A stretch of DNA of 36,613 bases, from the IMG/VR virus record IMGVR_UViG_3300009529_000005, positions 1-36,613 of that record; one strand, 5' to 3'. This DNA comes from a virus. Positions 1,796 to 33,220 of the stretch are shown piece by piece (the first letter of the stretch is position 1; each line of letters begins with the position of its first letter). The position numbers and the translations under genes are program-made. The notes under the pieces were generated by a model that saw nothing but the letters and a program-made list of their open reading frames with translations, was not told the origin of the DNA and did not search any database.

Positions 1796-2107
1796 ATGGC
1801 AATAACCACAACAACATTGCTACCATCACCAGTTCAGCAAAGCTTTAGCTATAAGTTGCTAAGCGTGCCTGTGCCTAGCCTTATTCATAAATTGGCTGCT
1901 ATGAAAAAAAGTATGCCAAGAAATGGCGGCACAACATTGCGTATGAGAAGATATAATGCTCTTTCAACCGCAATGGTTCCACTTGGAAATACAGGAGTAA
2001 CTCCTCCAGCAGATACGTTAAGCGCGGTTGACATAGATGCCCGCATGTCTTTCTACGGAAAGTACATTTTGCTTAATGAGCAAGTGACTCTGCAATCTCA
2101 AGACCCT
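1796..2107 (+). CDS. Major capsid protein, exon 1 (N4-gp56 family)
   Basis: This encodes residues 1-104 of the capsid protein. It ends at a Pro codon in the phrase EQVTLQSQDP, which is continuous with VLNEAAKRLGVSLRQTEDQL in exon 2 and matches the unbroken N4-gp56-type sequence. Without splicing, translation would run five codons into the intron and stop at 2123-2125. The spliced product is 315 residues, normal for the family. The ribosome site is AAGGA, 7 nt upstream of the ATG. It forms the icosahedral shell. Neighbours are the scaffold upstream and a probable head-decoration protein downstream. Confidence 0.85.
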
Positions 2108-2349
2108 AGCCACATATTAGCATAGAAGTTGACAGCAAATAATGGGGTCTATAAACCTTCTCTGATGGACTTGAAACTCTTACCAGGTCATGCTGGAGAC
2201 AACAAGGCGGAAGGCGAAAGCCACCGTAAACGAAGCAAGCGAGAAGGCACGGGAAACCGTGATGCGGTGCTCTGAACTCTATGGAAACATAGAGAGGTAG
2301 GCTGAGAAGATCTACCCGCCTCAAAAGAGGTCATAAAAGTAACAGAATG
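2108..2349 (+). ncRNA. Group I intron, 242 nt, without an open reading frame
   Basis: The intron interrupts the capsid gene exactly between codons 104 and 105. The exon end GACCCT can pair with the internal guide GGGGTC just inside the intron, giving a P1 helix with the diagnostic U-G wobble at the 5' splice site after T2107. The last intron base is G (2349), as the mechanism requires. Three GAAA-capped hairpins are visible: GGC-GAAA-GCC, CACGG-GAAA-CCGTG and CTCTATG-GAAA-CATAGAG (P8-like). The region is clearly more GC-rich than the flanking exons. Joining 2107 to 2350 restores one capsid frame. No homing endonuclease is encoded. I did not assign every core helix, so the subgroup is open. 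Confidence 0.85.
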
Positions 2350-2985
2350 GTATTAAACGAAGCTGCTAAGAGATTAGGTGTATCACTTCGTCAAACAGAA
2401 GATCAATTAACACGAGATATGTTGGCTGCTACAGCAAGTACTATTGATTGTGTTGCTGGAGTTAACGGTGATAGCCCAACTGAAGTAACAAGAGCGGATG
2501 TTGAAACAACAGTCAGAACACTTCTTGGAAATGATGCTTATACCATCATGGATAACATTGAGGGTGATGATAAGTTTGGTACAGCTCCAGTTCGAGATGC
2601 ATATTTTGCAATGTGCAATACTTCTTTAACATCTGACTTAACAGCAACAGCTGGATTTATTCATAAGAATCAATATCCAGATCAAAGCTCTACATTAAGA
2701 TCTGAATGGGGATCAGTAGGAAATTTACGTTTCTTGGTATCTTCAGTTGGATCAGTAACAGCAACTTCTTCAGGTGCTGGTGCAGATGTATTTAATATTT
2801 TTTGTGTTGGTATGGAAGCATATGCTTGTATTGAGCAAGATGGCTATAGCGCACAATTTATATATAGACCTCCAATTTATGATGGTCCATTAGCACTTAA
2901 TGCGTCAGTCGGATACAAGTTTGCGGAAGTTCCTAGAATAACCAATGACTTGTGGGTAATAAATCTTAGAGCCACATTAAGCTAA
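2350..2985 (+). CDS. Major capsid protein, exon 2 (N4-gp56 family)
   Basis: This encodes residues 105-315 of the capsid protein, starting VLNEAAKRLG and ending LRATLS. An ATG at 2347 is only apparent: it consists of the last three intron bases and has no ribosome site. The text QTEDQLTRDMLAATAS followed by a DVETTVRTLLGNDAYTI-type segment is characteristic of N4-gp56 capsids. The stop is followed by an AAAGGAA ribosome site for the next gene at 2999. Confidence 0.85.
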   Translation, partial: VLNEAAKRLGVSLRQTEDQLTRDMLAATASTIDCVAGVNGDSPTEVTRADVETTVRTLLGNDAYTIMDNIEGDDKFGTAPVRDAYFAMCNTSLTSDLTATAGFIHKNQYPDQSSTLRSEWGSVGNLRFLVSSVGSVTATSSGAGADVFNIFCVGMEAYACIEQDGYSAQFIYRPPIYDGPLALNASVGYKFAEVPRITNDLWVINLRATLS

Positions 2986-4012: not shown

Positions 4013-4042
4013 TATCATAAACTAAAAGATACACTACTCACG

Positions 4043-4070
4043 AGGAGGGTTCCTATGCCCTTCTCTTTTT
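4043..4070 (+). terminator. Rho-independent terminator after the capsid-decoration gene
   Basis: GAGGAGGG pairs with CCCTTCTC (one G-U pair) around an 8-nt loop and is followed immediately by a run of five T. It would end or attenuate transcripts of the capsid pair. The loop includes an ATG behind a GGAGGG. It could be read as a five-codon leader, but the terminator explains the segment better. Confidence 0.65.
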
Positions 4071-4073
4071 AAG

Positions 4074-4100
4074 GACACAAGTATCAAGGATACAAGTATC
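4074..4100 (+). repeat. Two palindromic 15-nt units upstream of 4112
   Basis: GACACAAGTATC (4074-4085) and the full dyad GATAC-AA-GTATC (4089-4100) lie 15 nt apart. Each is preceded by AAG, and AAGGAG follows, so the repeat ends on the ribosome binding site of the next gene. Confidence 0.8.
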
Positions 4101-4111
4101 AAGGAGAAAAA

Positions 4112-4492
4112 ATGATCGAGAACAAAGAGACAAAAAAGAAAATAAATCTTAAGTATGAACGTGATAAAGACAGAGAAAAAGTAAAAGGAATTTTTAAATT
4201 TTATGAAGTTCCTGGCGGAGAAATTAGTTTTGTATTCAGAAAGTATAAAGAAGATCCTGTTGAAAAATTTACTATGGTAGACGGTAAAATGTATAATATT
4301 CCTTTGGGTGTTGCAAAGCATCTTAATAAAAGTGGTTGGTATCCAGTCCATCAATATATGCAAGATGAAAGCGGAAAGACATCAATGAAAGTAGGACAAA
4401 AAGTAAGACGATATGGATTTCAAAGTTTAGAGTTTGTTGATGTTGAAGAACTTAATAATGCAAGTCCAATTATAACAGTAGAAAATGTATAA
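4112..4492 (+). CDS. Conserved hypothetical virion-cluster protein
   Basis: A 126-residue protein with charged N-terminal and beta-rich central parts (GIFKFYEVPGGEISFVFRKY, VAKHLNKSGWYPVHQ, KVRRYGFQSLEF). The last phrases are reminiscent of a short protein I associate with podovirus capsid clusters, but I know of no assigned role. The ATG at 4112 follows AAGGAGAAAAA. The gene is set off from its upstream neighbour by a terminator and two palindromic units, and from its downstream neighbour by one unit. Confidence 0.65.
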   Translation: MIENKETKKKINLKYERDKDREKVKGIFKFYEVPGGEISFVFRKYKEDPVEKFTMVDGKMYNIPLGVAKHLNKSGWYPVHQYMQDESGKTSMKVGQKVRRYGFQSLEFVDVEELNNASPIITVENV

Positions 4493-4500
4493 TTTATAAG

Positions 4501-4512
4501 GACACTTGTGTC
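4501..4512 (+). repeat. Palindromic unit GACAC-TT-GTGTC
   Basis: A perfect 5+5 dyad flanked by AAG and AAGG, in the 40-nt gap between two virion genes. It is identical in architecture to the units at 4074-4100. Confidence 0.8.
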
Positions 4513-4532
4513 AAGGTGAAGGGAGAGAAGTA

Positions 4533-4883
4533 ATGCCAGGCTATGCACATGAAGATCCACAATTTCAACCATCAATGCGTCTTATAAATGCAATAACAAG
4601 TGCAAAAGTTCCAACAATTACAACAACATTCGCTCATAATTATTCTGATGGGATAATTGTTCGTTTTTATATTCCTTCTTATTATGGAATGAGAGAACTT
4701 GATAAGAAAACTGGAACTATTACCGTAACTGCAAATGATACATTTACTGTTGAAATAGATACAAGAAAGTTTGGTGCATTTGTTGTTCCTGCAAATGAAT
4801 GGTGGCATAATCAAACTGCTATGGTCGTGCCGATAGGTGAAGTAACTAGCCAGATTAATGAAGCTATAAGAGATGTAAAATAG
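4533..4883 (+). CDS. Small virion protein with an FCCH-like beta domain
   Basis: A 116-residue product starting MPGYAHEDPQ. I chose the ATG at 4533 because GGGAGAGAAG precedes it. An in-frame TTG at 4506 would start inside the palindromic unit and lacks a ribosome site. Residues 15-90 (ITSAKVPTITTTFAHNYSDG, RFYIPSYYGMRELDKK, DTFTVEIDTRKFGAF) are homologous-looking to the C-terminal domain of the product of 2999-4012. A head-tail or decoration component is likely. The exact role is unknown. Confidence 0.68.
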   Translation: MPGYAHEDPQFQPSMRLINAITSAKVPTITTTFAHNYSDGIIVRFYIPSYYGMRELDKKTGTITVTANDTFTVEIDTRKFGAFVVPANEWWHNQTAMVVPIGEVTSQINEAIRDVK

Positions 4884-10930: not shown

Positions 10931-11764
10931 TTAATTAAGATCTGGAGGTATTTCTATATGCTTCCAGGTCTTTTCATGTTTTATATCATATATAGTTACT
11001 GTATGAACATTAAACATATTACCTATTTCTTTTAAAGTTAGATTAGAATTTTGCAATAGTTTTTTTATTTCTATGACCTGTTCACTTATTAATTTTGATC
11101 CATATATTTTTTCTCCTCTTGCTACTTTTGCTCGTTCTTTTTTATGCATATCAAGCACATTATCTGTTGGCGTTCCTAAAAATAAATGTTCTGGGTTTGT
11201 GCACTCTGGATTATCACACGTATGACATACATACATTCCATCAGGAATTTGTCCTTTATGTAATATCCATGAAGCTCTGTGAGCACCAATAATTTTTCCT
11301 TCATATTGAAGTGCTTTATATTTTTTACTTGGGCATCCATTCCAGCTCCAGCATCCTTCTTGTTTGATTACATGTTTTTCGAATGATTCTCTCAGCCTTT
11401 TGATTTTTTCTTCTTGGTTAGCAGTTGACCAAAATGCATTTAGTGGGGTAGATCCTTCTTGTGATTTTGTATAACACTCTTTAGAACAATATTTTAAGTT
11501 TGACAGTTTGTGTTCTATTAATTTTTTACATCTTATACAGAATCTGTCTGGTTTTCTGTGATCTAATCCCATACACTTTTTTGAGCAGTATTTTTGATCT
11601 GGAAATCCTTTGTGATCAAAGTCTTTTTCACAAACAAGACATTGCTTTGTTCTATTTTTTTTCTTTAAAGCAGAAATACATTCTCTAGAACAACACTTTC
11701 TTCTTGTTGCGTGTGATGGTTTTGTTTTAAACTCTTTGCTACAAAACAAACATTGTTTAATCAT
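10931..11764 (-). CDS. Free-standing HNH homing endonuclease with zinc fingers
   Basis: A 277-residue protein from the ATG at 11764 (MIKQCLFCSKEF). A start eight codons earlier (11788) is possible but would overlap the upstream gene more. Three CxxC...CxxxC zinc-finger-like repeats fill residues 1-100. The HNH core is at about residues 135-205 (CWSWNG, AHRASWILHKGQIPDG, CHTCDNPECTNPEHL), and an HTH-like tail ends in LTLKEIGNMFNVHTVTIYDI and TWKHI. This is the HNH_3/I-HmuI-like design that nicks DNA to spread itself. It is inserted leftward at the end of the virion operon. Confidence 0.85.
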   Translation of the reverse strand: MIKQCLFCSKEFKTKPSHATRRKCCSRECISALKKKNRTKQCLVCEKDFDHKGFPDQKYCSKKCMGLDHRKPDRFCIRCKKLIEHKLSNLKYCSKECYTKSQEGSTPLNAFWSTANQEEKIKRLRESFEKHVIKQEGCWSWNGCPSKKYKALQYEGKIIGAHRASWILHKGQIPDGMYVCHTCDNPECTNPEHLFLGTPTDNVLDMHKKERAKVARGEKIYGSKLISEQVIEIKKLLQNSNLTLKEIGNMFNVHTVTIYDIKHEKTWKHIEIPPDLN

Positions 11765-11765
11765 T

Positions 11766-11915
11766 TTATGATCTTCTCCATCTTTCATATAAATAAATAA
11801 GTGTTAAAGGCCAAAACATAAACATTGTTATGTATTTAAAAAAATTTCCTAGAAATGAAAACCATGTATATTCGTTGAGACTAGTCTCGTTGACACTGGT
11901 GTCTTTTTTTTCCAT
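11766..11915 (-). CDS. 49-residue membrane protein carrying the palindrome-coded repeat
   Basis: The reading frame starts at an ATG at 11915 behind a strong TTGGAGGAAATAAA ribosome site. The product begins MEKKDTSVNETSLNEYTWFS, continues through one hydrophobic helix (FLGNFF, FKYITMFMFWPLTLIYLY) and ends ERWRRS. The DTSVN-ETSLN pentapeptides are the two palindromic units at 11877-11903. The basic C-terminus after the helix predicts N-out/C-in topology. Its stop lies two bases from the HNH start. A small lysis or membrane role is possible, but I have no homologue in mind. Confidence 0.72.
   Translation of the reverse strand: MEKKDTSVNETSLNEYTWFSFLGNFFKYITMFMFWPLTLIYLYERWRRS
11877..11903 (-). 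repeat. Two palindromic units, GAGAC-TA-GTCTC and GACAC-TG-GTGTC
   Basis: Both are perfect 5+5 dyads, starting at 11877 and 11892 (15 nt apart), with GTT as linker. On the minus strand they encode DTSVN-ETSLN near the start of the 49-residue membrane protein. Confidence 0.87.
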
Positions 11916-14508: not shown

Positions 14509-15120
14509 TTGTTAAATTCTAAAAAGTGTTTAATTTGTGGAAAAGATTTTTATCCAAGAAAAGATAAATTTGATATAGCTAAAACATGTTCAAGAAAGTG
14601 TTGTTGTATGTATGCAGGCAGAAAAAGCAGAGAGAAACAGCTTACTGAATGGAATAAAGATACTTATGAACAATTTATAATAAAAATGAAAAAGTCTTTT
14701 GAAACTTTTTTTGAAAAAAATGATGCTTGTTGGGTTTGGAATGGAGCTAAAAGAGGGCAATATAGGTTGCCATATGGAAGTTTTACATTTAGAGGAAAAG
14801 AATATTCAGCGCATAGAGCATCATATATGATTTATAAAGATAAAATACCTAAAGGAAAACTTGTATTGCATATGTGTGATAATGCTTCATGCGTGAACCC
14901 AGATCATCTTTATTCAGGAATATATATTGATAATCAACTTGATAAATTAAAAAGAGGAAGATGTAAGGTTGAAAAACTCACTATAGAGCAAGTAAAAGAA
15001 ATAAAAGAAAAATTGGCTACTGGAATAACATCAACTAAACTATCAAAAGATTATGGAGTATCCATGACAACAATGCATTCAATTAAAACTGGTAAAACAT
15101 GGAAGCATGTTAAGCTATAA
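14509..15120 (+). CDS. Free-standing HNH homing endonuclease
   Basis: A 203-residue protein starting at a TTG (14509). AAGGAG lies six bases upstream, and the ATG at 14504 gives only three codons in another frame. Its layout is a zinc finger CLICGKDF...KTCSRKCC (residues 6-31), an HNH core (CWVWNG, SAHRASYMIYKDKIPKGK, HMCDNASCVNPDHLYSG) and a C-terminal HTH tail (GITSTKLSKDYGVSMTTMHS, TWKHVKL). It is a rightward relative of the 10931-11764 protein. It sits between fibre genes rather than inside an intron, so it probably spreads by homing into intergenic DNA. Confidence 0.85.
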   Translation: MLNSKKCLICGKDFYPRKDKFDIAKTCSRKCCCMYAGRKSREKQLTEWNKDTYEQFIIKMKKSFETFFEKNDACWVWNGAKRGQYRLPYGSFTFRGKEYSAHRASYMIYKDKIPKGKLVLHMCDNASCVNPDHLYSGIYIDNQLDKLKRGRCKVEKLTIEQVKEIKEKLATGITSTKLSKDYGVSMTTMHSIKTGKTWKHVKL

Positions 15121-17634: not shown

Positions 17635-17663
17635 ATAATAACCTAAAATAAAGGGTTATTATG
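17635..17663 (+). promoter_or_regulatory. Hairpin covering ribosome site and start codon of an HNH gene
   Basis: ATAATAACC (17635-17643) pairs with GGTTATTAT (17654-17662) around a 10-nt loop. The right arm includes the GG of the AAAGGG ribosome site and the AT of the ATG at 17661. The fold would block translation from read-through mRNA, a control style known for free-standing homing endonucleases of T-even phages. Confidence 0.55.
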
Positions 17664-18239
17664 AAAACATGTAAAGATTGTAAAATTGAGAAACCACTTA
17701 GTGAGTTTTATAAATACACAAAGAAAAACTGCTATAGAGGACGTTGTAAGAAATGTCATCAATTAAGGTTTTATAAGCCAAAGTATGGAAAACCAGGATT
17801 TAAGAAATGTCATACTCCATGGAATAAGGGTAATAGAGGAAATGGCGCATGCAGAGCATCGTACAAAAGTAAGGAATGGATAAAAAGTATTTTAAAAAGA
17901 GATAACTATATGTGCACAGAATGTTCTTCTTTCGAAAACCTTGTTGCTCATCATATTAAATCTTGGAATAAATTTTCTATGCTAAGGTTTGATTTTAATA
18001 ATGGTATAACATTATGTCATTCTTGTCATAGCAAACTACATAGAACAATGAATGGTTTCCAAAAAGGAAGAATTCCATGGAACAAAGGAGGGAAGTGGAA
18101 TAATGAAGTTAAAGAAAAGATTAGTAAAAAACTTAAAGGGAACAAATCTAAAGGAAAGCTTTTTAAAAAAGGACATGTCCCATGGAATAAGGGGCTTAAA
18201 TTAGGAGATAATGATGGCAACAAAAAATTCTATAAATAG
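17661..18239 (+). CDS. Free-standing HNH endonuclease with NUMOD3-like repeats
   Basis: A 192-residue protein. The N-terminal zinc finger is CKDCKIEKPLSEFYKY...CKKCH. The HNH core is at about residues 90-132 (CTECSSFENLVAHHIKSW, NGITLCHSCHSKLH). DNA-binding NUMOD3-like repeats follow (PWNKGNRGNG, RIPWNKGGKWNNEVKEKISK, HVPWNKGLKLG). It is a different HNH subfamily from the other two. Its last codons overlap the ribosome site and start of the 18214 fibre gene by 26 nt, so the insertion landed exactly at the junction of two fibre genes. Confidence 0.83.
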   Translation: MKTCKDCKIEKPLSEFYKYTKKNCYRGRCKKCHQLRFYKPKYGKPGFKKCHTPWNKGNRGNGACRASYKSKEWIKSILKRDNYMCTECSSFENLVAHHIKSWNKFSMLRFDFNNGITLCHSCHSKLHRTMNGFQKGRIPWNKGGKWNNEVKEKISKKLKGNKSKGKLFKKGHVPWNKGLKLGDNDGNKKFYK

Positions 18240-29941: not shown

Positions 29942-30146
29942 AGAACTTTATAGAAATCTTAAAAGACTACACGCAAGAGTTGATCAAGTAGAAGAATACT
30001 GCAATGAAATTAGCTCATATATATATGAATTGGAAAAAGGATTACACGACAAGGATGAAACTGTAGCAAAGCAAATAAACAGTTTTATGAAATTAACAAC
30101 AGCTAAGATCGAAGAAATAGGTGAAATCCTAGAAGATAAAGAATGA
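29934..30146 (+). CDS. Small coiled-coil protein between terminase genes
   Basis: A 70-residue acidic helical protein (MDKELYRNLKRLHARVDQVE and so on). It overlaps its neighbours on both sides by a few bases (ATGGATAA and ATGA), so it is in the terminase operon. Heptad spacing suggests a dimer or trimer coiled coil. It might be an accessory to packaging. Function unknown. Confidence 0.62.
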   Translation: MDKELYRNLKRLHARVDQVEEYCNEISSYIYELEKGLHDKDETVAKQINSFMKLTTAKIEEIGEILEDKE

Positions 30147-33100
30147 ACTATGAAAGCAGGCGAGTTCTAAATTCATTTGTTCCAAGAGAATATCAAAAAC
30201 CTTTATGCGATGCTTTAGAGAACAAAGGATACAAAAAGATAGTTGCAATTTGGCCTCGAAGATGTCTTGCAGTTGATACAGATATATTAATGGAAAATGG
30301 ATCTGTTAAAAAGATACAAGATGTAAAGACAGGAGATAGAATCCTTTCTTTTAATGGTAAAAAGATTTCTGTAGATACAGTAAAAGATTGCTGGAAAACA
30401 GGAAAAAAGAAAACATTTTCTTTAAAGTCATCTTCTTTTTTGCCTATAGAAACAACCGAAGATCATTTGTTCGCCGTTAAATATAAAAACTCAATCGGTT
30501 GGAAAAAAGCATGTAATTTATCAAATCAAAATAAAATTTATCAATATGCCGGCATTCCTGGAAATATTAATTGCACGCTAAAGGCAGAATTATTAGGACT
30601 ATTAACTCATAACGGATATATATCTGGATACCAACAACCAATATTTACCAATGTAAATATTGATATATTAAAAAGAGCAGAATTTTTAATTAAAAAAGTC
30701 TTTAATTATGATGTTATATGGCGTAAGAAAGGAAATGGATTTGATCTTGGTATATCTAACGGAACTAAAGGTGGTGGATATACAAAAAACAAAGTAAAAG
30801 AATTTTTTAGAAACGTTGGACTGGATGTTCCTAAATCAAAAAAAAGAATACATCCTGAAGTTTTTAACTATGACGAAGAGTCAATATTAAGATATTTAGC
30901 AGGTGTAATATCAGCAGATGGTTCAATACACACTCATAAAAAAGATAGAAAATTTAATGATATAAATGGCAGAGAAAGAAACATTCTTGCTTCATCTGAA
31001 ATAACAATTCATTGTGGCCTTAGTAAACAACTGGCTTACGATACTTACTGGTTATTGCGTAAAATTGGAATTATTTCTCAGGAACTAAAACTTGAAAGAA
31101 ACTCAAATTGGAAAGTTAGAATAAGTCAAGGTCCGCAAATATTTAAACTTTTATCGAATGGAAGAATTTACGGTAAAGAAACAAAACAACAAGAAGCGTT
31201 ATTAAATAGCAAAAGATTTAATAAGAAACGTACCATTGAAGCAGGTTGTTACAATAGCGCTGCAATAAAAAAATATAATCATACATTTACTGAAACATAC
31301 GATATCGAAACAAAAAGTAACCATAACTTTTTTGCAAACGGTTATCTTGTTCATAACTCAGGTAAAGATATTACAGTGTGGAACTTATGCGTACGACAAT
31401 GTATCAAAAAGGTCTGCATTGTATATTATATATTCCCAACTTATGCACAGGCTAAGAAAGTAATATGGGATTCTATAACAAATGACGGCAAAACATTCCA
31501 TGACTTTATACCTGATGAACTCATAAAATCTAAAAATTCTCAAGAGCTTAAGATTACATTTACAAATGGTTCTATTCTTCAGCTTATTGGTTCAGAAAAT
31601 TACAATTCACTTGTTGGAACCAACCCTTACGGCTGTGTTTTCAGTGAGTATGCAATACAAGATCCACGTGCATATCAATTTCTCAGACCCATTCTTTCGG
31701 CGAACGATGGGTGGTGTATTTTTGTGAGCACGCCCCGCGGCCGCAACTCATTCTATGAACTCTACCAGATAGCTTTGAATCATCCAGACTGGTTTGCACA
31801 TAAACTAACACTCAATGATACAAAACATATTCCACTTATAGAGATAGAACGTGAAAGAGCTGAAGGCCTTATGTCTGAAGACCTTATCCAGCAAGAATTT
31901 TATACATCTTTCTCTTTAGGGGTAGAGGGAGCTTATTACACCAAATACTTAGACAAAATGAGACTTAATAATCAAATAGGCCAAGTGCCATACGAACCAG
32001 GGTTCAAGGTGCATACAGCGTGGGATCTTGGAGTAAGAGATTCAACAACAATTATATTTTTTCAAACTGTAGGTCAAACTATCCGCATAATAGATTGTTA
32101 TGAAAAATCAAAAGAAGGTCTTGAACACTACGCAAAAATATTAAACCAAAAAGATTACATTTATGGGAAACACATTGCTCCTCATGATATTGGAGTAAAA
32201 GAATTTGGCTCAGGAATGACGCGTCTTGAAAAAGCAAAGCAACTTGGTATACAGTTTACAATTGCTCCAAGTATTTCTATTGAAGATGGTATTGAATCAG
32301 TACGTTCAACGCTGCCAAAAATGTGGATAGACGAGCAAAAATGTGAAAAACTCCTCAAGTCTCTCAATAACTATAGACAAGAGTTTGATAATAAAAAAAG
32401 AGTGTATAAGCCACGACCTTTGCATGACTGGTCAAGTCATTTTTGTTTTGATGGAAATATGAACGTAACTACACCAGATGGAAATATAAAAATAAAAAAC
32501 ATAAAAGAAGGTCAATATATTTTAACACCACTTGGAAAAAGAAAGGTTTTAAAAGTACATAAAAAATTAACAAATGAGATGTGCAATATTAATAATAATA
32601 TAATATGTACTCCAGATCATAATATCTTTACGCAAGACTTATTGACTTCTGCAGATTCTTTGAGCTATAACGACACTTTAGAGCCTTATAGCAAAATTAG
32701 GAGTTTTTTATGGAAAAAGATATTTGGATATTATATAGGGGAACGAGGTATAAAAGGATTTAAGAAGACTATCTTATCTCTGAAGATGAAAAACAAGTCA
32801 TGCTTAATGGATACATTTATAGATGGAATGCGTCAAAATATTATATGGGATGATCAGGAAGAAAAGATAATGGAACATCATATACCGGAAAAAGTGGACA
32901 TACAACACATTTTGAAAAAAGGATTTATACTATTTGCAGTAAAGAGTTTGAGTGTGATAAATATGCTATCAAAAAAACATGTGGTAAAGAGTGTGGAATT
33001 ATACAATCTAGATACACCAAAAGAGGTATACGATTTAACAGTTGAGCATGATAACTGTTATTACATCAATGGTTATTTGGTCTCAAACTGTGACGCTATG

Positions 33101-33220
33101 AGATATCTCTCGATTTCACTACCTAGTACAAAAGATGGATTATCGGCAACTGACCTTGATCGCATTCGTAATGAAGCTATTTATGGAGTAGAAAGTAATT
33201 TACCTCCATTTTTTAGGTAA
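30143..33220 (+). CDS. terL: Terminase large subunit precursor interrupted by two inteins
   Basis: A 1025-residue precursor. Removal of residues 41-405 and 768-982 leaves a 445-residue terminase, a normal size. Exteins join as IWPRR+SGKD (Walker A of the ATPase) and DWSSHF+CDAMRYL (third acidic motif of the RNase H-like nuclease). Other motifs visible are CVFSEYA (Walker B region, about residue 496), FVSTPRGRN (coupling motif, about 526), TAWDLGVRDS (nuclease Asp 1, about 628) and APHDIGVKEF (nuclease Asp 2, about 680). It cuts and pumps DNA into the procapsid. Activity should be absent until both inteins splice. ATGA overlap with the gene upstream. Confidence 0.9.
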   Translation: MNYESRRVLNSFVPREYQKPLCDALENKGYKKIVAIWPRRCLAVDTDILMENGSVKKIQDVKTGDRILSFNGKKISVDTVKDCWKTGKKKTFSLKSSSFLPIETTEDHLFAVKYKNSIGWKKACNLSNQNKIYQYAGIPGNINCTLKAELLGLLTHNGYISGYQQPIFTNVNIDILKRAEFLIKKVFNYDVIWRKKGNGFDLGISNGTKGGGYTKNKVKEFFRNVGLDVPKSKKRIHPEVFNYDEESILRYLAGVISADGSIHTHKKDRKFNDINGRERNILASSEITIHCGLSKQLAYDTYWLLRKIGIISQELKLERNSNWKVRISQGPQIFKLLSNGRIYGKETKQQEALLNSKRFNKKRTIEAGCYNSAAIKKYNHTFTETYDIETKSNHNFFANGYLVHNSGKDITVWNLCVRQCIKKVCIVYYIFPTYAQAKKVIWDSITNDGKTFHDFIPDELIKSKNSQELKITFTNGSILQLIGSENYNSLVGTNPYGCVFSEYAIQDPRAYQFLRPILSANDGWCIFVSTPRGRNSFYELYQIALNHPDWFAHKLTLNDTKHIPLIEIERERAEGLMSEDLIQQEFYTSFSLGVEGAYYTKYLDKMRLNNQIGQVPYEPGFKVHTAWDLGVRDSTTIIFFQTVGQTIRIIDCYEKSKEGLEHYAKILNQKDYIYGKHIAPHDIGVKEFGSGMTRLEKAKQLGIQFTIAPSISIEDGIESVRSTLPKMWIDEQKCEKLLKSLNNYRQEFDNKKRVYKPRPLHDWSSHFCFDGNMNVTTPDGNIKIKNIKEGQYILTPLGKRKVLKVHKKLTNEMCNINNNIICTPDHNIFTQDLLTSADSLSYNDTLEPYSKIRSFLWKKIFGYYIGERGIKGFKKTILSLKMKNKSCLMDTFIDGMRQNIIWDDQEEKIMEHHIPEKVDIQHILKKGFILFAVKSLSVINMLSKKHVVKSVELYNLDTPKEVYDLTVEHDNCYYINGYLVSNCDAMRYLSISLPSTKDGLSATDLDRIRNEAIYGVESNLPPFFR
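30263..31357 (+). mobile_element. Intein 1 with LAGLIDADG endonuclease, in the terminase Walker A motif
   Basis: The intein covers precursor residues 41-405 (365 aa). Block A begins CLAVDTDILMENGSVKKI (Cys1). Block B has TTEDH at about 105. Two LAGLIDADG segments are AELLGLLTHNGYISG (about 147) and YLAGVISADGSIH (about 251). It ends YDIETKSNHNFFANGYLVHN with the final His-Asn, followed by Ser406 as the +1 nucleophile. All residues needed for splicing are present. In the first LAGLIDADG motif the catalytic Asp appears replaced by Asn (THNG), so cleavage may be impaired. Confidence 0.88.
32444..33088 (+). mobile_element. Intein 2 in the terminase nuclease active site
   Basis: The intein covers residues 768-982 (215 aa). 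It starts CFDGNMNVTTPDGNIKIKNI (Cys1) and has a block B-like CTPDHN at about 820. It ends with a block F/G of KEVYDLTVEHDNCYYINGYL and VSN, followed by Cys983 as +1 residue. The penultimate residue is Ser instead of the common His. No LAGLIDADG motif is present in frame. The 100 codons between the splicing blocks do not look like an intein domain, and in another frame hold an HNH-type relic. Confidence 0.85.
32710..33045 (+). pseudogene. Out-of-frame relic of a zinc-finger homing endonuclease within intein 2
   Basis: Two bases out of the terminase frame, this stretch reads MEKDIWILYRGTRYKRI-stop-EDYLISEDEKQVMLNGYIY...-stop-...EKRIYTICSKEFECDKY then AIKKTCGKECG. Stops are at 32761 and 32851. 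The last segment aligns with the zinc finger of this phage's own HNH protein at 14509 (ICGKDF...KFDIAKTCSRKC) and with CSKEF...C of the 10931 protein. I infer an endonuclease once in this position that was shifted out of frame while the intein frame stayed open for splicing. A chance match cannot be excluded. Confidence 0.45.

Follow-up and report, generated by a model that had tools for sequence, protein, structure and literature searches.

The IMG/VR virus record IMGVR_UViG_3300009529_000005 was analyzed over a stretch of 36,613 nucleotides (positions 1 to 36,613 of the record, hereafter the window), which carries a gene for the terminase large subunit (terL, protein TerL) interrupted by two inteins, the second of which holds the fossil of an endonuclease gene in another reading frame. 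The gene is one open frame at positions 30143-33220, coding for a precursor of 1025 aa and lying, like all the parts of it described below, on the plus strand. The N-extein (30143..30262, aa 1–40) ends in the Walker A loop (WPRR) and is followed by intein 1 (30263-31357, aa 41–405, 365 aa; PRR/CLAV...LVHN/SGKD, slashes marking the junctions), which combines a Hint domain with an in-frame LAGLIDADG endonuclease. The middle extein (31358..32443) holds the Walker B region and nuclease motifs I and II, and intein 2 (32444-33088, aa 768–982, 215 aa; SSHF/CFDG...LVSN/CDAMRY), with a Hint fold, separates it from the C-extein (33089..33217), whose first residue is the +1 Cys and which contains the third acidic nuclease residue within DAMRY. 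Once both inteins are removed, a TerL of 445 aa is left.

The joined extein aligns without gaps across both junctions with the uninterrupted proteins of its closest IMG/VR relatives (80% identity to L003 and L004, 65% to L005, and 53% to L009), in which both sites are empty. It matches phrog_2 (3.9e-25), and the motifs WPRRSGKD, VFSEY, WDLGVRD, PHDIG, and CDAMRY align with those of the relatives, giving the Walker A/B ATPase and the RNase H-like nuclease with three acidic motifs of a terminase large subunit. The Pfam family Intein_splicing is matched by the whole protein (3.9e-20), by intein 1 (9.6e-13), and by intein 2 (2.4e-08, slightly below the Pfam cut-off), and the NCBIfam models intein_Nterm and intein_Cterm match as well. 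Another close relative, L002, is a second contig of the same virus and codes for an identical protein including both inteins, while singly occupied TerLs are also found in IMG/VR, with intein 1 only (L006 and L007) or intein 2 only (L008). In the alignment, the +1 residue is Ala at the empty sites (Ser at the intein-2 site of L005) and Ser (site 1) or Cys (site 2) at the occupied sites of the closest relatives. The two-intein TerL at these positions is real, far beyond chance, and an assembly error is excluded. The original prediction, made from the letters of the window, had placed two inteins in one terminase, one in the Walker A loop and the other in the third acidic nuclease motif, with a rejoined extein of 445 residues carrying all the expected motifs; the domain matches, the junction motifs, and the alignment with intein-free terminases bear this out. 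Intact splicing motifs and matching junctions suggest that both inteins are spliced from the precursor. The joined extein is a normal TerL, whose function presumably needs splicing of both, as had been claimed for the two activities of the packaging motor.

Intein 1 shows the features of a class 1 intein (C1, block B TTEDH, terminal VHN, and +1 Ser), is inserted in frame, and is absent from the homologues L003, L004, L005, and L009. All of its 26 further relatives in IMG/VR share the same Walker A junction, RR/C...HN/SGK(D/E), always with Ser at +1. These 26 also keep the catalytic Asp of LAGLIDADG block C (GYMLADG in L006), which is replaced by Asn (codon 30611..30613) in this virus only (GLLTHNG); the Asp of block E (ISADG, 30917..30919) is retained. 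Intein 1 is therefore a degenerate member of the LAGLIDADG endonucleases, which have two motifs with a catalytic Asp in each. Enzymes of this kind without one catalytic Asp are expected to be unable to cut, and the nuclease of intein 1 is predicted to be dead because of the D-to-N change.

Intein 2 is likewise a class 1 intein (C1, block B CTPDH, terminal SN, and +1 Cys), its penultimate Ser being common also among its relatives. AlphaFold gives a confident Hint fold for residues 1–83 and 177–215 with a disordered middle (residues 84–176, pLDDT <50), and a Foldseek search with this model returned 43 matches at E<=0.001, mostly inteins, the best being gp41-1 and other inteins. In the -1 frame relative to TerL, an internal Shine-Dalgarno sequence (AGGAG, 32699-32703), a T-rich spacer, and an ATG (32710-32712) are intact at the start of the remains of an HNH endonuclease gene. 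The first remnant (32704..32907) corresponds to the N-terminal domain, with 71% identity to the HNH of L019 (match at 32701-32907, E 3e-27), and the second (32911..33042) to the C-terminal zinc finger, with 67% identity to the same protein (match at 32911-33039, E 6e-16). Between the two, some 135 residues have been lost, the catalytic core among them, and two stop codons (TAA 32761 and TGA 32851) fall within the first, so that neither an intact reading frame nor a catalytic core is left to the HNH while the splicing frame is unbroken. Intein 2 of the window carries a fossil overlapping gene, its start preserved, its core deleted, and its frame closed by two stops. Both inteins look homing-dead yet splicing-competent.

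The complete version of this arrangement is seen in L008, where an intein 2 of 344 aa is overlapped by an open reading frame (ORF) of 241 aa (4024-4749), again in the -1 frame, which makes the TerL (host) frame the +1 frame of the HNH. This ORF matches HNH_3 (7.6e-18) and phrog_15471 (6.4e-30), and its AlphaFold model (mean pLDDT 87.5) is closest to I-HmuI. According to the models, the product of this homologous DNA would fold into an enzyme when read in the HNH frame, as in L008, and be a disordered linker when read in the intein frame, as in the window. The residues H77, H78, N85, N86, N90, H99, and H103 and the zinc-finger Cys are invariant in 20 sequences, and the overlapping frame of the intein-2 relatives has all the marks of an HNH homing endonuclease domain (HNH_3, HH...N...H, and zinc fingers). 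About 45 nt directly past the HNH start (window 32740-32800) are nearly identical to L008, the two inteins being far more diverged elsewhere; recombination or constraint acting on both frames may be the cause.

Searched singly against IMG/VR, the HNH or the intein of L008 retrieved only L008 itself, and an alignment was needed as query. When phages were searched by tblastn with the entire L008 intein, OP947163 was the only match, since the linker, being overprinted, shows no conservation at the protein level. Scanning IMG/VR with an alignment of nested HNHs gave 80 loci, to which six phage records were added. In 58 of these 86, a proportion that comes from a similarity-ranked sample and is not a prevalence, the +1 frame has no stop over the entire HNH and mostly lies inside an ORF of 500–1600 codons, whereas the other 28, free-standing HNHs, have 1–12 stops in that frame. 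The remaining frame is stop-rich in both groups alike. In the 54 spanning ORFs that were aligned, the intein starts with Cys and ends with Asn in every case, the +1 residue is Cys (43) or Ser (10) in all 53 with a readable junction, Intein_splicing is matched in 46, and nearly all are covered by terminase families. The median distance from the start of the intein to the HNH match is 281 nt, and that from the HNH stop to the end of the intein is 55 nt, which puts the HNH in the linker joining splicing blocks B and F, the ordinary place of an in-frame endonuclease domain.

Three phages have the same arrangement, with the HNH in the same relative frame beneath their TerL annotation: Rhodobacteraceae phage LS06-2018-MD07, Acinetobacter phage Highwayman, and Tetrasphaera phage TJE1. 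In a scan of prokaryote genomes, 12 of the 27 HNH loci inspected were nested, and in 10 of these both the C-terminus of the intein and its junction with the extein are clear. Nested-HNH TerL inteins occur there in contigs L131, L139, and L137 (a Thermoplasmatales archaeon bin, Parabacteroides, and Bacteroides), probably proviruses. In BP10, Poludnitsa, and SN1, HNHs of this family stand free beside terminase genes. Nesting may have arisen once or more often: the HNH tree has seven nested/free label changes in its best version, at least two of them forced by starred branches, and weak deep support.

An open host frame is by itself weak evidence. The +1 frame of HNH genes is naturally stop-poor (3.4 stops per 100 codons in free-standing HNHs, vs 11 in the +2 frame), and these codon statistics account for the favored nesting frame. 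One could then suppose two ordinary inteins in which the HNH likeness of the alternative frame is a meaningless chance product of codon usage, but we give this almost no credence, considering the strength of the HNH_3 and phrog_15471 matches, the conserved catalytic residues, and the stops that the 28 free-standing relatives do have in their +1 frame. Furthermore, in 332 of 332 nested pairs the translations of the HNH frame resemble each other more than those of the host frame do (means 0.45 vs 0.26), pairs that are not independent although the direction never reverses, and the codon-position bias already contradicts a chance product: between close nested pairs the differences gather at the third codon positions of the HNH, where the host frame has its second positions (11, 6, and 32 in L024/L026, p 5e-6). 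When nested HNHs were shuffled synonymously, a mean of 2.5 host-frame stops appeared (median chance of none 0.03 per gene), and codons drawn from free-standing HNHs would give 5.3 (median P(0) 0.000). Pair identities, third-position changes, and shuffling together indicate constraint on the protein sequence of the HNH frame and, for the host frame, at least on its remaining free of stops.

As to how the HNH would be made, 44 of the nested loci have an ATG close to where the HNH begins, and a Shine-Dalgarno sequence at proper spacing is present in 28 of these, compared with 9% of control ATGs (p ~1e-11, two candidates each allowed), which suggests translation from an internal start of its own. 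Both the window and L008 have a U_UUU_UUA heptamer in the intein frame just ahead of the HNH start, which could instead point to programmed -1 ribosomal frameshifting from the TerL frame, yielding an N-intein-HNH fusion. Slippery heptamers are found, however, in only 5 of the 54 nested loci, and the T run can be read as a plain spacer between Shine-Dalgarno and ATG; internal initiation is for this reason preferred, and frameshifting was rejected as an improbable source of the HNH.

A different architecture is seen in Vibrio phage 1.238.A (L099, NC_055735), where an HNH gene in another frame breaks the TerL intein: the frame of TerL and the N-intein runs only as far as the HNH, and beyond it starts a C-intein plus C-extein, annotated as 'hedgehog/hint domain protein', so that this is likely a natural split intein. 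It might be argued from this phage that nesting is generally a step toward split inteins, the HNH insertion breaking the host frame and TerL being joined by trans-splicing. We find this even less probable than frameshifting, since the window and the 58 nested loci have an unbroken frame, for which splicing in cis is enough; at most, some phages have the split form as a derivative.

The two inteins had been predicted to be independent gains, and this conclusion is supported by the singly occupied relatives (intein 1 alone in L006, L007, and most of the 26 loci, intein 2 alone in L008) and by the unrelated endonuclease types. The argument offered for it, that the +1 residues differ (Ser and Cys), has to be abandoned: the +1 residue is extein sequence and either Cys or Ser is found within the intein-2 family, so it is no marker of origin. 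The overlapping-frame HNH lineage of intein 2 and the loss of both homing nucleases had been missed. Other combinations of inteins also occur. The same pair of sites as in the window is occupied in L113, intein 1 accompanies another intein in L103 and L121, and the TerL precursors of L083 and L088 (~1540–1590 aa) have three or more apparent inteins, at Walker A, at NPSGPGH/C...N/SW, and at the nested-HNH site, with L083 perhaps having a fourth at YHGHEY.

Overall, it is very probable that this terL carries two unrelated inteins, the second a shortened descendant of the overlapping-HNH family, and that both have lost homing and kept splicing. TerL would be made as the 1025-aa precursor, and splicing of both inteins would restore the Walker A loop and the nuclease active site. 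Intein 1 is a LAGLIDADG intein specific to this Walker A site, its nuclease short of one catalytic Asp, and intein 2 would derive from a family settled at TerL nuclease motif III, whose endonuclease is encoded apart from the intein, by an HNH gene that starts internally in the -1 frame of the DNA coding for the splicing-domain linker. Over the HNH, the intein frame would mainly need freedom from stops, so that its product is a disordered linker, protein-level constraint falling on the HNH frame. In the window, the HNH gene has decayed through deletion of its core and gain of stops while the splicing frame of an essential protein stayed open, and both inteins would be at the stage of the homing cycle at which splicing is kept and homing lost.

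With somewhat less confidence, though we still hold it to be probable, this extends to a widespread class of inteins, mainly at TerL motif III, in which splicing and homing are two proteins that can be lost separately, the HNH being read in the -1 frame from its own internal start. The mini-inteins (window and the Microcystis phage Mic1), nested forms (L008 and others), split form (Vibrio 1.238), and free-standing HNHs may be stages of one cycle. The HNH would cut empty terL sites and so drive homing, for which the patchy distribution over divergent TerLs is indirect support. Beside the non-independence of the pairs and the ranked sampling of loci mentioned above, some points weigh against the interpretation as a whole: 10 of the 54 nested loci have no ATG near the HNH start, 16 of the 44 that do have one show no recognizable Shine-Dalgarno, the target of the HNH is deduced from its position only, and splicing and HNH translation are both read from sequence.

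Elsewhere in the window there are three more HNH endonuclease genes (10931-11788, minus strand; 14509-15120 and 17661-18239, plus strand), which make this a phage rich in homing-type nucleases. An apparent capsid protein gene (1796-2985, plus strand) consists of two ORFs separated by ~220 nt (2126-2346) that fold strongly as RNA (-67.5 kcal/mol, z -3.4). An Rfam search of the window, this gap included, gave no match, and the gap is a candidate for a small self-splicing intron.

In textbook inteins the endonuclease is an in-frame domain, with splicing and homing on one polypeptide. Where both share one piece of DNA but use different frames, each can be expressed and can decay without the other, and a mini-intein has a natural way of becoming a split intein. 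The arrangement also explains a difficulty of annotation, the HNHs of Highwayman, TJE1, and LS06-2018-MD07 being unannotated under "terminase large subunit," and provides a clean case for the evolution of overlapping genes, with one frame constrained in sequence and the other mainly kept open. Fractured genes, in which a free-standing endonuclease gene lies between the halves of a split intein, were reportedly described by Dassa et al. 2009. Vibrio phage 1.238 resembles them in having the endonuclease gene separate from the splicing domain and between the intein halves; in the nested loci, by contrast, the intein stays whole, overlapped in another frame by the endonuclease gene. I-HmuI is encoded by a group I intron and not by an intein. 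It is the best fold and profile match of the nested HNH (PDB 1u3e; Foldseek E 0.0066, probability 0.98; profile E 0.0026), with only part of the fold aligning (TM-score 0.25–0.33).

Full-text literature searches found no out-of-frame endonuclease inside an intein and no papers on overprinting in inteins, although their coverage lacked Dassa et al. 2009, Gorbalenya's Non-canonical inteins (PMC147447), and a preprint by Gosselin et al. (10.1101/2025.01.02.630785, with "non-canonical architecture" in its title) that may overlap. The intein type with an out-of-frame HNH is apparently undescribed. The nearest cases are the out-of-frame HNH insertions in mycobacteriophage methylases, the ShiLan domain and Pacc40 (PMC11855218, 2025), with Applejack as a further example (PMC12613952). 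As there, the HNH is in the third frame, the host frame is open, and the in-frame product is predicted to be disordered. The ShiLan and Pacc40 insertions have no detectable splicing domain and are thought to be retained in the methylase; here the Hint domain that surrounds the HNH is complete (C1, the block B His, a terminal Asn, and Cys or Ser at +1) and the host gene is essential. The intein-2 family thus agrees with the ShiLan type in relative frame and open host frame but not in the lack of a splicing domain.

TerL is also a main intein target in mycobacteriophages, where, as far as the available part of that study goes, P-loop insertions with demonstrated splicing and in-frame endonuclease activity are reported, all seven sites fall in the ATPase domain, and neither a motif III site nor an out-of-frame HNH is described (PMC5050341). 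Two inteins in one TerL are already published, and the window is a further example. A crAss-like Delta phage has two Hint-Hop inteins in its TerL (PMC7886860), and that of Microcystis phage Mic1 has one in the ATPase domain and one in the nuclease domain (PMC7156551, 2020; MN013189). The first intein of Mic1 is at a different ATPase site (LLTG/C...HN/TPKG) and not at Walker A as in the window. Its second intein occupies the same H/C...N/CDALRY site as intein 2 of the window and is a short mini-intein without HNH likeness in another frame.

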